A stretch of DNA of 64,000 nt, taken from positions 62,001-126,000 of the forward strand of contig NZ_JAGSYD010000004.1 of assembly GCF_025685575.1 (NCBI RefSeq), in the 5' to 3' direction. The translations under genes and the position numbers were made by a program. Shown here in pieces: positions 41,905 through 46,541 of this stretch; within the stretch, counting starts at the first letter, position 1; every line of letters starts with the position of its first letter. The DNA is from Granulicella cerasi (GTDB lineage: Bacteria > Acidobacteriota > Terriglobia > Terriglobales > Acidobacteriaceae). Below the pieces are notes generated by a model, which saw nothing but the letters and a program-made list of their open reading frames with translations, was not told the DNA's origin and did not search any database.

Positions 41905-43101
41905 ATGCTTGGAAACGGAATAGCTTCGCAACGGTCGGATGGATCGGCTGCGGCCTTTCACAATGTGCTCGACAGAGTGCTTTACGGTGAGTGGACCGTA
42001 GAGACACATACGCAGCCGATCGTCGATCTGCAACGCGGCGTCATCACTGGTTATGAGGCGCTGGCGCGCTTCTCCAAAGAAGTGGGCATGTCTCCTGACC
42101 GCGTGCTGCGCGCGGCGGAAGAGATTGGTCGCCGCCCTGAACTTGAGCGCGGCCTTGCCCTGAATGCACTTCGCCTGCGCGACAAGCTTCCTGATGAAAC
42201 TTTCCTCACGCTGAACGTGAGTCCGACCTTCATGCTCTCGCCGGAATGGGGCGAGGTCGTGTATGACTCGGGCACGCTCGAGCGCACGGTCATCGAAATT
42301 ACCGAAGAACACATCATCGACGACTACGCTGCGGTGCGTCGCCAGATCGAGCGCATCCGCGCTCTCGGCGGCACGATCGCGATCGACGATACCGGTGCTG
42401 GATACGCGAGCCTGAAGCACGTGATGGAACTGCGTCCTGACTTCATCAAGCTTGATCGCCTCTTCGTGGACGGTTGCCATCTCGATCCGACAAAGCGCCA
42501 GATGATCGAGCTGCTCGGCAACACGGCCGAACGCCTCGACTCCTGCGTTGTCGCTGAAGGCATCGAAACCGAAGGCGAACTGCGTGAGATGGTGCGCCTT
42601 GGAATTCCGCTGGGGCAGGGTTACTTCCTCGGTCGACCGACGCCGCACATGGCCGCACTGGGTACAGGCCAGGCAGAGTTGATGCGCGCTTTCAGCGCCT
42701 CGAATGCGCTGGATGTCGGAGTCGGCCCGTACGCGGAGTACTGCTCGATGGCGATGTCGGAGACGGACGCTTACACGCAGATGCTTGGCAGCGATGAAGA
42801 CCGCACCATCATGGTGGTCGACAACTGGGCACGTCCGACGATGCTGGTGGAGCGTCATCCGCTGATCGGCGTGCGCTCGCTGCGTTCGCTGATGCGGGTC
42901 TCCTCGCGCAGCTTACCGGGTGTGGCCCTATCGCGCGCGCTGACGCGTACCGAAGCGGAGCGCTTCAACCCCATCGCGATCGTGAACGAGAGCGGCATCT
43001 TCCTCGGCATCCTTCGTATGGAGCGCCTGATTGAGGCCGCGCTGAAGGAAGCCTCCACCCCGATCATGGCGTCCTACACGCCGCAGGTGGGGAACTGCTA
43101 G
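41905..43101 (+). CDS. EAL-domain cyclic-di-GMP phosphodiesterase with C-terminal CBS-like region
   Basis: A 398-residue cytosolic protein with GAGGGG before the ATG. The EAL domain (about 30-260) has the catalytic set: YEALARF, LNVSPTF, EITEEH, IAIDDTGAGYASL, FIKLD, VVAEGIET and GQGYFLGRP. It is therefore predicted to be active in breaking down c-di-GMP. No GGDEF domain is present. The C-terminal 130 residues (MVVDNWARPTMLVERHP and NPIAIVNESGIFLGILRMER) look like a degenerate CBS pair, a possible nucleotide sensor. It stands alone between lgt and the riboswitch-controlled operon. Confidence 0.9.
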   Translation: MLGNGIASQRSDGSAAAFHNVLDRVLYGEWTVETHTQPIVDLQRGVITGYEALARFSKEVGMSPDRVLRAAEEIGRRPELERGLALNALRLRDKLPDETFLTLNVSPTFMLSPEWGEVVYDSGTLERTVIEITEEHIIDDYAAVRRQIERIRALGGTIAIDDTGAGYASLKHVMELRPDFIKLDRLFVDGCHLDPTKRQMIELLGNTAERLDSCVVAEGIETEGELREMVRLGIPLGQGYFLGRPTPHMAALGTGQAELMRAFSASNALDVGVGPYAEYCSMAMSETDAYTQMLGSDEDRTIMVVDNWARPTMLVERHPLIGVRSLRSLMRVSSRSLPGVALSRALTRTEAERFNPIAIVNESGIFLGILRMERLIEAALKEASTPIMASYTPQVGNC

Positions 43102-43215
43102 TCCTGCTAGCCACTTCGCTCTGGGCGAGCGTGCTCGCAAAGCGTTTTCCACATGATGTTTGCAGTGTCGTCAACGTGGTGCTATAACTAATCCATTCAC
43201 CCACGCGAGTGGGCG

Positions 43216-43326
43216 GATTTCATGCAGAGTGGCTGAGGGACGAGCCCTGAGACGCCACGACAACCGGACAGTACAAATGCGTACCGGTGTCACCTCTCTC
43301 CTGGAAGTCGCAGGGTACATGAGATT
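43216..43326 (+). ncRNA. SAM-I-type (S-box) riboswitch
   Basis: The core CAGAGTGGCTGAGGGACGAG and the following CCCTGAGACGCCACGACAAC match the S-box pattern: P2 forms from GTGGC/GCCAC around AGGGAC-GAGCCC, followed by the conserved ACAACCGG. A P3-like stem (ACCGG/CCGGT around a short hairpin) and the GGTGTCACCTCTCTCC stretch complete the core. A 9-bp P1 pairs GATTTCATG (43216-43224) with CATGAGATT (43318-43326), with two G-U pairs. S-box elements turn off methionine and SAM genes when SAM is high. The downstream gene is annotated by family as threonine synthase, which is atypical. Confidence 0.88.
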
Positions 43327-43437
43327 CGGTGTCGCAGCCTCGTCCTGACGGACTGCATTCCGCGTACTCTCGTACTTTGGCTGAACGCGGCGGCCCTCTC
43401 CAAGAGAAAGTTAGTCTCAGCAACGTTCCCGGGCAAA

Positions 43438-43450
43438 CTCCGCTCGGAGG
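43438..43450 (+). promoter_or_regulatory. Possible Shine-Dalgarno-sequestering hairpin before thrC-like gene
   Basis: CTCC (43438-43441) can pair with GGAG (43446-43449), which is the ribosome-binding site for the ATG at 43458, across a GCTC loop. The 5-bp extension is limited by loop size. It could be the expression platform of the riboswitch acting on translation. No T-rich terminator is seen between the aptamer and the gene. Confidence 0.4.
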
Positions 43451-43457
43451 ATGTTTC

Positions 43458-44759
43458 ATGTCGGAATCGTCGTGTACCGTGTATGAGCTGAAGTGCCCGG
43501 AGTGCAAGAAGGGCTTTGGCAATGTGCCGTTGTCGGCTTGCCCGGATTGCCTGGCGCCGCTCGAAGTGCAGTATGACCTCGACAGCGTGCGTGGGCGCTT
43601 CACGAAGGAGTCGGTTGCGGCCGGCCCGGCGAACATCTGGCGCTACAAGGAACTGCTTCCGATCCCCGAAGGCCATCAGCCTGATCTGCCGGTGGGCTTC
43701 ACGCCGCTGGTGAAGGCCGACCGTCTCGGCAAGCGCATCGGCGCGACGAATCTGTATGTGAAGAACGATGCTGTTTGCTTCCCGACGCTGAGCTTCAAGG
43801 ACCGCGTGGTCGCGGTGGCGTTGGCGAACGCGCAGCACTTTGGCTTTGATGTGGTGGGCTGCTCGTCGACGGGCAATCTGGCGAACTCGGTGGCTGCGCA
43901 ATCGACGCGCCTCGGTCTGCGCGCCTGCATTCTGGTGCCGAGCGATCTGGAGCCGGCGAAGATCTTGAACACCCAGGTCTACGGCGCGAAGCTCGTGCGC
44001 ATTGAAGGCAACTACGACCACGTGAACCGCCTCTGCACGCTGATCGCGGATGAGTACAAGTGGGGCTTCGTGAACGTGAACCTGCGCCCGTACTACGCGG
44101 AAGGTTCGAAGACCGTCGGCTATGAGATCGCCGAGCAGCTTGGCTGGCGTCTGCCGGACAACATCGTCTGCCCGATGGCCGGCGGCTCGCTGATCCGCAA
44201 GATCAAGAAGGCGTTTGCGGAGCTCGTGGCTCTTGGCATCGTCGAAGACAAGCCGGTGAAGTTCTTTGGCGCGCAGGCGACGGGATGCTCGCCGATCTCG
44301 CACTCGGTGAAGAATGGCTGGGATGACATTGAGCCGCAGCGTCCGAACACGATTGCGCGTTCGCTGGCGATCGGTAACCCGGCGGATGGTCCTGCGGCTT
44401 CGAAGATGATTCAGTCGACCGGCGGCTATGCGGAAGATGTGAGCGATGTCGAGATCGTCAGCGGCATTCAGGAGCTTGCGGAGACCGAGGGCATCTTCAC
44501 GGAGACGGCTGGTGGTGTGACCACGGCGGTGACCGCGAAGCTCTATGCGGATGGCCGCATCGGTAAGGACGAGCTGACGGTTTCGGTGATCACTGGCAAC
44601 GGCCTGAAGACGACTGATCCGCTGGTGGGCAAGTTTGCAGAAGAGCGCGCGGTGAAGCCGCGTCTCGCGGAGTTTGACGCGTTTCTGCGTGAGTCAGACG
44701 CTTCGCTCATCACGGGCGTAGCGGAAGAAGAAGTAGAGCTGGTTGGAGGTACGAAGTAG
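43458..44759 (+). CDS. thrC: Threonine-synthase-family PLP enzyme under SAM riboswitch control
   Basis: A 433-residue fold-type II PLP enzyme. An N-terminal zinc ribbon uses C13, C16, C28 and C31 (CPEC and CPDC). The PLP-binding Lys is K114 in PTLSFKDRVVAV, SSTGNLANSVAAQ binds the PLP phosphate region, and MAGGSLIRK and ITGNGLKTTDP lie further on. Threonine synthases convert O-phosphohomoserine to threonine. The SAM riboswitch in front and the translationally coupled sulfur carrier behind suggest that this member may instead make homocysteine from the same substrate. Both readings are possible. GGAGG lies eight bases before ATG 43458; the frame is open further upstream but overlaps the riboswitch. 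Confidence 0.88.
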   Translation: MSESSCTVYELKCPECKKGFGNVPLSACPDCLAPLEVQYDLDSVRGRFTKESVAAGPANIWRYKELLPIPEGHQPDLPVGFTPLVKADRLGKRIGATNLYVKNDAVCFPTLSFKDRVVAVALANAQHFGFDVVGCSSTGNLANSVAAQSTRLGLRACILVPSDLEPAKILNTQVYGAKLVRIEGNYDHVNRLCTLIADEYKWGFVNVNLRPYYAEGSKTVGYEIAEQLGWRLPDNIVCPMAGGSLIRKIKKAFAELVALGIVEDKPVKFFGAQATGCSPISHSVKNGWDDIEPQRPNTIARSLAIGNPADGPAASKMIQSTGGYAEDVSDVEIVSGIQELAETEGIFTETAGGVTTAVTAKLYADGRIGKDELTVSVITGNGLKTTDPLVGKFAEERAVKPRLAEFDAFLRESDASLITGVAEEEVELVGGTK

Positions 44760-45040
44760 TGAGCATCAAGGTTGTGTTGCCGACGGCGTTGGCCCGTCAT
44801 ACGGATGGACAGAAGGCGTTTACGTCGGATGCGAAGAACCTGCCCGGATTGATCGCGGAGTTTGGCGAGAAGTTTCCGGCGCTGGCTGAGAACGTGAAGG
44901 ATGAGAACGGCAAGCTGCGCAAGTTCATCAACGTGTATGTGAACGATGAGGACATTCGCTTCCTCGGTGGCGATGGCTTGGAGTTCGCAGATGGCGATGA
45001 GATCATGCTGATTCCGTCGATCGCGGGTGGTCTGCTGTAG
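44759..45040 (+). CDS. MoaD/ThiS/CysO-like sulfur-carrier protein
   Basis: A 93-residue beta-grasp protein starting at GTG 44759, which overlaps the preceding stop by one base (TAGTG), so the two are coupled. KFINVYVNDEDIRFLGG and the end ADGDEIMLIPSIAGGLL match MoaD/CysO carriers whose C-terminal Gly-Gly is adenylated and turned into a thiocarboxylate. The di-glycine is G90-G91, but two extra Leu follow. As in CysO or HcyS, a protease would have to remove them first. No activating enzyme or protease is in this window. Confidence 0.88.
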   Translation: MSIKVVLPTALARHTDGQKAFTSDAKNLPGLIAEFGEKFPALAENVKDENGKLRKFINVYVNDEDIRFLGGDGLEFADGDEIMLIPSIAGGLL

Positions 45041-45073
45041 GGAGTTGTACGTTCTAAGTTGTAAGTGAACATG

Positions 45074-45100
45074 ACGGCGAGCCTTTGGGCTCGCCGTTGT
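45074..45100 (+). terminator. Terminator after the sulfur-carrier gene
   Basis: A perfect 10-bp stem (ACGGCGAGCC / GGCTCGCCGT) with loop TTTG, followed by TGTGTTTT. It ends the riboswitch-controlled operon after two genes. Confidence 0.85.
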
Positions 45101-45130
45101 GTTTTGGGGCGGCGATAGACTGGTTCGTAC

Positions 45131-45625
45131 ATGGACATGAAGACGATTGTTTATCGCGGTGGAGTAGTTGCGTTTCGCGTCCCTGCGACCTGGCTCGAAG
45201 AGTATTCGGATGTGGATGGCGGCATGTTCTACGAGGACACGCCTGACTCGGGTACGTTGCGCGTGAAGGTCATCACCATGGAGAGTCCAAAGCCTGTGGG
45301 GGCGGTGTCCGCAAGGGATAATCTTGATCGGGTGACAGCTCCGATCAGGCGGCGCGTGCCAGGATGCGAAACGCGTGTGCGGGCGGATGGGCATCCAGTG
45401 TTCCGCTACAGTGAGATGGCGTTCGAGCAAGGGGTTCCGCTGATCCTTCACTACTGGATCGTGGCGAATGAGCTGCCGCCGAATCATCTTCGCTTGGTGA
45501 CGTTTTCGTACACCGTGCTGGCGAGTCGCCCAACGGAGGAGGAGACCTTACGCGATCTCGACATGCTTTTTGGCGAGATCGAGTCTGCGGTCTTCGCATC
45601 AGAGCTGGGAAACGTTATAGGTTGA
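45131..45625 (+). CDS. Conserved hypothetical protein
   Basis: A 164-residue cytosolic protein with no signal peptide or membrane segment. It contains YRGGVVAFRVPATWLEEYSD and GGMFYEDTPDSGTLRVKVIT, a pattern of small beta-rich proteins of unknown function (resembling DcrB/PsbP-like folds, which is only a guess). No catalytic motif can be seen. It follows the operon terminator and lies 58 bases before purU. The start is ATG 45131 or the ATG two codons later. Confidence 0.65.
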   Translation: MDMKTIVYRGGVVAFRVPATWLEEYSDVDGGMFYEDTPDSGTLRVKVITMESPKPVGAVSARDNLDRVTAPIRRRVPGCETRVRADGHPVFRYSEMAFEQGVPLILHYWIVANELPPNHLRLVTFSYTVLASRPTEEETLRDLDMLFGEIESAVFASELGNVIG

Positions 45626-45683
45626 GCCGCGTCGTTCCTAGCGGAGCGCTGTGTGTTCCGTCATACTTGGGTTGAGAATTCTT

Positions 45684-46541
45684 ATGACAAAAGCTGTGTT
45701 GTTGCTGGAATGCCCGGACCGCAAGGGATTGGTTGCAGCGATCATGACGTTTCTTGTCAGTGAATTCGACGCAAACATTCTTCATGCCGGTCAGCATCAG
45801 GACGCGGAGCTTGGGCGTTTCTTCATGCGCGTGGAGTTCGAGTATCTTGCTCGCGAGCATGAGAGTTTGCAGCAAGAGTTTGGCGCTCGATTCGAGCGGA
45901 TCGCAGAGGAGTATGCGATGCGCTGGCAGATTGCGCCGTCGGGCCGCAAACTGCGTGTCTGCCTGTTTGTTTCGCAGCATCTGCACTGTCTGGCGGACTT
46001 GCTGCAGCGATATCAGGCGGGTGAGTTTGAGTGCGAGATTCCGCTGATCGTGGGCAATCACGCCGATGGGCAGAAGCTGGCGGAGTTCTACGGTGTGCCA
46101 TTCGTTCTGCTTCCAGTGAAGGGCAACAAAGCTGAGGTCGAAGCCGAGCAGATGCGTCTACTCGCAGAGCATCGCATCGATCTGGTCGTGCTTGCGCGAT
46201 ACATGCAGATCATCTCGGCGGAGTTTGTCGAGCAGTGGAAGACGAAGATCATCAATGTGCATCACTCGTTCCTGCCAGCGTTCATCGGCTCGAAGCCGTA
46301 TCATGCGGCGTTTCGTCGTGGCGTAAAGCTGATCGGTGCGACGAGCCATTACGTCACCGCTGACCTGGATGAAGGTCCGATCATCGAGCAGGACGTGACG
46401 CGCGTTACGCAGGGAGATACGATCCCCGACTTGATCCGCAAGGGCCGCGACTTAGAGCGTGTCGTGCTTTCGCGCGCGGTACGGTGGCACCTGGAGCATC
46501 GCATCCTGCACTACGAAAACAAGACGGTGATCTTCGATTAG
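45684..46541 (+). CDS. purU: Formyltetrahydrofolate deformylase
   Basis: A 285-residue enzyme that hydrolyses 10-formyl-THF to THF and formate, balancing one-carbon pools. An N-terminal ACT domain (KAVLLLECPDRKGLVAAIMT) can sense methionine/glycine in characterised homologues. The formyltransferase domain has LVVLARYMQIIS, NVHHSFLPAFIGSKPYHAAF and the catalytic Asp in VTADLDEGPIIEQD. Its position after the SAM-riboswitch operon fits a one-carbon/methionine theme. The start is ATG 45684; an upstream ATG at 45651 has no better site. Confidence 0.94.
   Translation: MTKAVLLLECPDRKGLVAAIMTFLVSEFDANILHAGQHQDAELGRFFMRVEFEYLAREHESLQQEFGARFERIAEEYAMRWQIAPSGRKLRVCLFVSQHLHCLADLLQRYQAGEFECEIPLIVGNHADGQKLAEFYGVPFVLLPVKGNKAEVEAEQMRLLAEHRIDLVVLARYMQIISAEFVEQWKTKIINVHHSFLPAFIGSKPYHAAFRRGVKLIGATSHYVTADLDEGPIIEQDVTRVTQGDTIPDLIRKGRDLERVVLSRAVRWHLEHRILHYENKTVIFD

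Follow-up and report, generated by a model that had tools for sequence, protein, structure and literature searches.

MetY, a pyridoxal 5'-phosphate (PLP) enzyme of the PF01053 type, acts on an acylated homoserine, and in the MetY-HcyS system of Wolinella a protein thiocarboxylate reportedly serves as the sulfur source for homocysteine, as Krishnamoorthy and Begley, cited in PMC5764234, are said to have described in 2011. The acylhomoserine route is reportedly lacking in many Streptomyces. Hasebe et al. are said to have reported in 2024 that O-phosphohomoserine and thiocarboxylated MetO are converted to homocysteine. The locus described here lies in a 64,000-nucleotide stretch of the Granulicella cerasi genome (Acidobacteriota; contig NZ_JAGSYD010000004.1, positions 62,001 to 126,000 of the forward strand; hereafter, the window, with positions counted from its first nucleotide) and consists of an S-adenosylmethionine (SAM) riboswitch aptamer, a gene for a PLP enzyme of the threonine synthase (ThrC) family and a gene for a sulfur carrier. 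Judged from its sequence, it is very probably a metM-metO operon of the acidobacterial kind, preceded by a SAM-I riboswitch, with homocysteine synthesis from O-phosphohomoserine as the predicted function.

MetM is a homocysteine synthase of Streptomyces, ascribed to Hasebe et al. 2024 in PMC12172450, where metM of S. albulus is described with an upstream SAM riboswitch and the carrier-family gene metO. The window locus resembles MetM-MetO in having a ThrC-family PLP enzyme, an adjacent sulfur-carrier gene and an upstream SAM riboswitch, and differs from it in belonging to another phylum and in the carrier, which ends in GGLL in the window and in GG in Nonomuraea gerenzanensis, the stand-in for the Streptomyces proteins in the present comparison. 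An earlier note on this DNA, made from the sequence alone, suggested that no ThrC-carrier system of this kind was established; this suggestion is not supported, the MetM-MetO system having been in print since 2024, and the proposed chemistry is not new. PMC12172450 also describes the ThrC of Microcystis aeruginosa PCC7806, which is 51.6% identical to S. albulus MetM and is encoded beside a sulfur-carrier gene, with no SAM riboswitch; the window enzyme is likewise a ThrC-family protein encoded beside a sulfur-carrier gene, but with a SAM riboswitch. In comparison with the CysM-CysO-Mec+ system of Mycobacterium, where MoeZR transfers sulfur to CysO (PMC3227635), the window carrier is CysO-like, whereas the enzyme is of the ThrC type rather than the CysK/M type and its predicted product is homocysteine. 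The likeness to MetY-HcyS lies in the predicted use of a protein thiocarboxylate as the sulfur source for homocysteine; a system of this type was set aside, the enzyme beside the carrier being a ThrC-type member of PF00291, unlike MetY, which is of the PF01053 type.

The aptamer (43217 to 43325, + strand) matches the SAM-I (S-box) model RF00162 over the full model length with 65.2 bits, compared with the gathering threshold of 44.4 bits (E = 6.3e-13), and is the sole Rfam match above gathering in the window. A search of the 4.08 Mb genome, with 150 of the 255 first-look candidates scored, revealed no other SAM aptamer. On the same strand, the enzyme gene extends from an ATG at 43458 to a stop codon ending at 44759 and encodes 433 amino acids. 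From its translation, family, clade and clade-specific residues, the product is a MetM-like PLP enzyme and a predicted O-phosphohomoserine-dependent homocysteine synthase; it belongs to PF00291 (PALP, 221 bits in a profile search), and TIGR00260, the NCBIfam model for threonine synthase, gives it 275.9 bits against a cut-off of 167.1. Among solved structures, it is closest to threonine synthases, above all 2zsj (E = 2e-47), and its ThrC-family score far exceeds its CysK/CysM matches. The stop codon of the enzyme gene shares one base with the GTG start codon of the carrier gene (TAGTG), which runs from 44759 to 45040 (+ strand) and encodes a MetO-like, CysO-like protein of 93 amino acids (40.1 bits with the ThiS family profile) with Gly-Gly followed by LL at the C-terminus; its top solved relative is 3dwg_C (E = 1e-19), presumably the CysO protein of M. 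tuberculosis. The S-box aptamer, the fold-type II ThrC-family enzyme and the MoaD/CysO-like carrier with its one-base overlap had all been read from the letters alone in the earlier note, and its coordinates, 43216 to 45100, are correct within a few bases. The terminator that it placed after the carrier is borne out in part: a hairpin of 17 pairs at 45067 to 45104 (+ strand; -30.3 kcal/mol, z = -6.54) is more stable than each of 200 shuffled sequences, whereas the consensus terminator scan of positions 43000 to 45200 lists none there, which suggests a weak U-tract. The same scan lists none in the leader between the aptamer and the start codon (43326 to 43457, + strand), by its position the presumed expression platform. 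The leader is poorly conserved, an alignment of 11 leaders shows no clear conserved switch 3' of the aptamer, and the fold of the 266-base leader has a z-score of -0.88, with 39 of 200 shuffled sequences equally stable. Because of the poor conservation and the lack of a terminator-like site, control by the riboswitch would appear to be translational.

The assignment to the ThrC family does not by itself discriminate between functions because TIGR00260 is blind to the two clades (270.3 bits for the Nonomuraea enzyme and 302.4 bits for the enzyme of locus L091). In a maximum-likelihood tree of 49 rows, a single branch (100/100) separates 31 carrier-linked enzymes, including that of Nonomuraea, from 18 other ThrC-family rows, the MetM-like rows having been gathered through the carrier. 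The Nonomuraea gerenzanensis enzyme (NZ_LT559118.1) is 53.5% identical to that of the window, and the order of its locus is the same: a SAM aptamer (68.7 bits), the enzyme and a CysO-like carrier ending in GG. The record itself (L168; 11.85 Mb, 10 annotated features) is labelled as a plasmid and is probably a chromosome. The two groups also differ at individual residues. For this comparison, 16 rows of ordinary ThrC (two distant paralogues were left out) were set against 90 rows of the carrier type, made up of 76 plus 14 repeats of such genes from a separate search, with the numbering taken from an alignment of the window enzyme with 1uim, presumably the threonine synthase of T. thermophilus. 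Many positions are fixed in both groups and yet different. All 90 carrier-type rows have L141 (T88 of 1uim) and Y213 (R160), where all 16 ordinary ThrC rows have Thr and Arg; L111 and V117 occur in 89 of 90, against Gly at both positions in 16 of 16; and carrier-type N208 takes the place of the Ser of ordinary ThrC (S155 of 1uim). The window enzyme thus lacks residues that are fixed in ordinary ThrC (PTGSFKD; R160 and T88 of 1uim), and S155, R160 and T88 presumably line the substrate site of the T. thermophilus enzyme.

The pair and the aptamer recur, as the earlier note had proposed to check, and do so mostly in acidobacteria. A collection of genomes of 84,980 species was scanned with the carrier, and the best 80 of at least 341 confirmed loci were studied; by title and sequence, 69 of these are acidobacterial and 11 are not (L085, L086, L091, L092, L094, L095, L097, L098, L100, L101 and L102), the latter coming from Aquificota, Omnitrophota, Nitrospirota and one record titled only 'bacterium'. 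Three genomes titled Verrucomicrobia and Rhodanobacteraceae (L034, L046 and L048) encode enzymes 77-81% identical to that of the window, so that these titles are probably wrong. In 79 of the 80 loci, a set biased towards enzyme-carrier pairing because it was gathered through the carrier, a window-type enzyme gene (49-89% identity) ends -11 to 169 bases ahead of the carrier gene, some of the loci being truncated at contig ends; L092 is the exception, an enzyme gene being located on a different contig of that genome (G023:C4:25.3 kb). Rfam detected the aptamer in 9 of 12 loci of a first batch, and a second batch of 13 sources (doubtful cases plus Nonomuraea, with three sources common to both batches) yielded it in 3. 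A covariance model built from 13 aptamers, applied at E <= 0.1, matches 61 of the 80 loci, 11 of which are in the model by construction; all matches are on the + strand and start about 1.5-1.8 kb before the carrier, two of them being contig-cut. Among the 19 loci without a match, six (L045, L060, L074, L096, L097 and L098) have little sequence in the relevant region and L039 is borderline.

The other routes to homocysteine were examined in 31 genomes, namely that of the window and 30 chosen from the 80 loci (20 acidobacterial and 11 non-acidobacterial in total, the latter being small drafts in which single absences weigh little and agreement across all 11 weighs more). The G. cerasi genome, which is 98.7% complete, has no match to MetA (PF04204), and none of the 31 genomes, this one included, has a match to DUF39 (PF01837). 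For MetX (TIGR01392), the G. cerasi genome yields three partial matches of 21-28 bits only, which read as general alpha/beta-hydrolases. The 500-bit cut-off of this model is reached by none of the 31 genomes, but also by none of 14 controls (9 of which match at E <= 0.001), and is thus a poor discriminator, so that raw scores were used. The 11 non-acidobacterial genomes show a single MetX match, of 21 bits, no MetA, no DUF39 and, at E <= 1e-40, no PF01053 enzyme. Among the routes searched, no complete standard homocysteine route is apparent in the G. cerasi genome; the lack of such a route, which the earlier note had named as a point to check, stands with respect to MetA, DUF39 and full-scoring MetX and is qualified by the presence of two PF01053 enzymes. 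The ordinary thrC that the same note had sought is present as well: a gene on contig C2 scores 281.6 bits with TIGR00260 and is followed within a few bases on its 3' side by a GHMP-kinase gene placed as thrB, so that the window gene is not the sole thrC-family gene. At least two ThrC-family genes are present in 27 of the 31 genomes, the four with a single one (G018, G026, G027 and G028) being 0.7-1.5 Mb in size. Within the G. cerasi genome, PF00291 matches nine places at E <= 0.001, eight of them above the cut-off, and three of the matches belong to the ThrC family, namely the window gene, the thrC on C2 and a paralogue on C3.

The third paralogue (L007, C3:32-36 kb) is a 433-codon open frame that scores 145 bits, below the threonine synthase cut-off, and similar scores (140-157 bits) are found in 15 of the 31 genomes, that of G. 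cerasi included. In the tree, it groups with a threonine-synthase-labelled gene from an Aliarcobacter plasmid. On the Aliarcobacter cibarius plasmid pACIB, the region of 52-72 kb (L169) carries an annotated cysteine synthase, an M67 (JAMM) peptidase, a MoaD/ThiS protein and insertion sequence (IS) elements, along with a family 2A encapsulin and its cysteine desulfurase cargo.

The proteins that could trim and charge the carrier are encoded elsewhere in the G. cerasi genome, which contains four ThiS-like carriers, that of the window included. On contig C3 (314.7-320.9 kb; L107 4717-10942), about 6 kb of one strand hold genes for a CysM-like enzyme, a JAMM-family protein, a second CysO-like carrier, which ends in IAGGCCSPLAAGCCR, and a ThiF-rhodanese fusion of the MoeZ/MoeB type. 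The CysM-like gene adjoins the JAMM gene, and other open frames intervene in the set, which could also trim and charge the window carrier. Among 81 carriers, 6 stop right at Gly-Gly, 68 continue past it by one to six residues and 7 are without Gly-Gly in the last eight residues; because most carriers extend past Gly-Gly, processing by a JAMM-type protease is probably a general step.

Under the proposed mechanism, both the enzyme and the carrier genes would be expressed when SAM is low. The carrier would be cut after Gly-Gly, with the extra LL removed by a JAMM protease, and then adenylated and thiocarboxylated by a MoeZ-type E1/rhodanese, after which the charged carrier would hand its sulfur to the PLP enzyme. 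The latter would draw O-phosphohomoserine from the threonine branch, eliminate phosphate and add the carrier sulfur at C-gamma, and hydrolysis would free homocysteine for methionine synthase. The earlier note had proposed SAM-controlled formation of homocysteine from O-phosphohomoserine and carrier-bound sulfur, a predicted function that gains support here and agrees with MetM-MetO as described in PMC12172450.

The pair extends beyond acidobacteria, and its distribution in Aquificota is complementary to that of PF01053 enzymes. With 80 residues from the N-terminus of the L091 enzyme as the query (from G022, titled Sulfurihydrogenibium), so that the count refers to this match rather than to the whole enzyme, 97 of 136 Aquificota genomes gave a match, the best ones with 76-100% identity. 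This is a lower bound that misses at least G027, in which a contig end truncates the enzyme gene (L098). PF01053 enzymes at E <= 1e-40 occur in seven of the 136 genomes (G131-G137), all of them belonging to the 39 that gave no match to the enzyme (Fisher p = 1e-4, in a test that ignores relatedness), and 32 genomes have neither. In 23 of 30 Aquificota loci, the best-scoring of the 97 rather than a random sample, a tblastn match to the carrier lies within 0.5 kb behind the enzyme gene, within 100 bases in 19 cases; one of the 30 is cut off. In L085, L100 and L101, titled Omnitrophota, and in the untitled L094, which clusters with those three in the tree, a ThiF-type E1 gene comes after the pair and a small NIL-domain gene after that (in L100, the contig ends first), and sulfite-reductase or TusA-type matches lie upstream. 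A CysK/M-type gene is also found upstream of the pair in L100 and L101; L101 contains a second ThiS-family gene as well. In L095 (Nitrospirota), the gene order is CysK/M-type, E1, enzyme, carrier, NIL, second E1 and JAMM. The CysK/M-type genes of L095, L100 and L101 are about 41% identical to a CysK-like gene of G. cerasi (L006), which is present there in addition to the CysM-like one.

Stand-alone NIL-domain genes stand close behind the carrier in L091 (6298-6537), L095 (4490-4738) and, after the E1 gene, L101 (7133-7372). Such a gene is found in 8 of the 11 non-acidobacterial loci, in none of the 69 acidobacterial loci and in 14 of the 30 Aquificota loci, where a short downstream flank can miss it. 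In the MetN transporter, the NIL domain acts as the methionine sensor, and the DUF39 route likewise involves a NIL protein. A NIL-domain protein is a possible third component of the pair in these lineages. According to Price et al. 2018 (PMC5764234), at least one further homocysteine pathway was yet to be found, with Aquifex aeolicus among the organisms named. A tentative proposal, almost as probable as its opposite, is that the MetM-carrier pair supplies the homocysteine route so far missing for Aquificota, Omnitrophota and some Nitrospirota, operating without a SAM riboswitch and with a NIL protein that may sense methionine or help in sulfur transfer. The literature searched contains no account of a widespread acidobacterial riboswitch form, of complementarity in Aquificota or of E1, JAMM and NIL neighbours, with the proviso that Hasebe et al. 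2024 itself may list some of the lineages. Perhaps new are the widespread riboswitch-controlled unit of acidobacteria, the complementarity seen in Aquificota and the E1/JAMM/NIL neighbours, and the pair in Aquificota, Omnitrophota and Nitrospirota is possibly so.

Several observations weigh against the identification of the window locus as metM-metO. The link to the assayed Streptomyces proteins is made through the Nonomuraea stand-in, which forms a long branch in the tree. The aptamer is absent from the acidobacterial loci L079, L082 and L084 despite enough sequence, and none of the 11 non-acidobacterial loci has a match, two of these being too short. Genes of other routes do occur in genomes with the pair: MetA in one of the 31 (G013, acidobacterial), MetX-family matches of 79-148 bits in 11 of the 31, all acidobacterial and that of G. 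cerasi not among them, and PF01053 enzymes at E <= 1e-40 in all 20 acidobacterial genomes. The two PF01053 enzymes of G. cerasi are encoded in tandem (C1:676-678 kb), and their best NCBIfam matches are under the cut-offs (among the best 25 of 43 families for each). Because no acyltransferase was found, this tandem pair may serve reverse trans-sulfuration. Absent from some of the loci and, according to PMC12172450, from Microcystis as well, the SAM riboswitch is not a constant feature of the family. Sulfite-reductase query matches lie near the pair in the aptamer-less L079, L082 and L084, with E1 and JAMM matches also in L084, so that the riboswitch may tend to be lost in pairs located among genes of sulfur assimilation.

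The alternative that survives best, although quite improbable, is that the enzyme is a carrier-dependent O-phosphoserine sulfhydrylase that makes cysteine, like CysM-CysO. Beta-replacement is chemically simpler for enzymes of fold type II, and the top solved relative of the carrier, presumably CysO, favours this possibility as well; however, the enzyme scores as a ThrC-family protein far above its CysK/CysM matches, and G. cerasi has a separate CysM-like gene next to the JAMM gene, close to which a carrier and a MoeZ-like E1 are encoded, in addition to the CysK-like gene. Cysteine looks covered in L095, L100 and L101 because a CysK/M-type gene shares the cluster with the pair.

Slightly less probable still is a second, SAM-regulated threonine synthase, with the carrier serving something else. 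The window enzyme is of the same family as ThrC and exceeds the TIGR00260 cut-off, and the Microcystis homologue, next to its carrier gene, was assigned threonine synthase and deaminase activities and made threonine in vitro (PMC12172450). Against this stand the ordinary thrC-thrB pair already present in G. cerasi, the two or more ThrC-family genes in most pair-bearing genomes and the differences of the carrier-linked clade from the ordinary ThrC rows at doubly fixed positions, R160 and T88 of 1uim included. The clade-specific residues, the carrier gene and the SAM aptamer all set the window system apart from ThrC, and a threonine synthase would leave both the SAM control and the conserved pairing with the carrier unexplained.

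The least probable alternative, homocysteine synthesis from O-phosphohomoserine and free sulfide with a dispensable carrier, draws on an unidentified peak near methionine that the Microcystis homologue gave with O-phosphohomoserine and sodium sulfide (PMC12172450) and on 6 of the 30 Aquificota loci, where the 0.5 kb that follow the enzyme gene gave no carrier match, and is countered by the retention of the carrier beside the enzyme gene in nearly all of the 80 loci, biased as that set is. MetO is itself said to be the sulfur donor in the work of Hasebe et al.

The immediate neighbours of the locus are an EAL-type regulator gene upstream (41905-43101) and a formyltetrahydrofolate deformylase-like gene downstream (45651-46541), both assigned by reading, and neither suggests a larger methionine operon. 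In another of the genomes examined, that of Terriglobus roseus (G011, genome of L068), two pairs of equal-scoring matches on contig C1 (2666833/3127352 and 2716510/3177028) are both about 460.5 kb apart, and this equal spacing suggests a duplication of about 50 kb or longer, or an assembly artefact.

The metM-metO interpretation would account for the possible synthesis of methionine by these acidobacteria in the absence of a homoserine acyltransferase. It also implies that genes labelled 'threonine synthase' through TIGR00260 can be something else, and predictions of methionine auxotrophy would change for many uncultured lineages. The presence of the pair in drafts of Aquificota, Omnitrophota and Nitrospirota, in counts that pertain to the phylum and not to A. 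aeolicus itself, offers a testable answer to the gap pointed out for Aquifex aeolicus in 2018.

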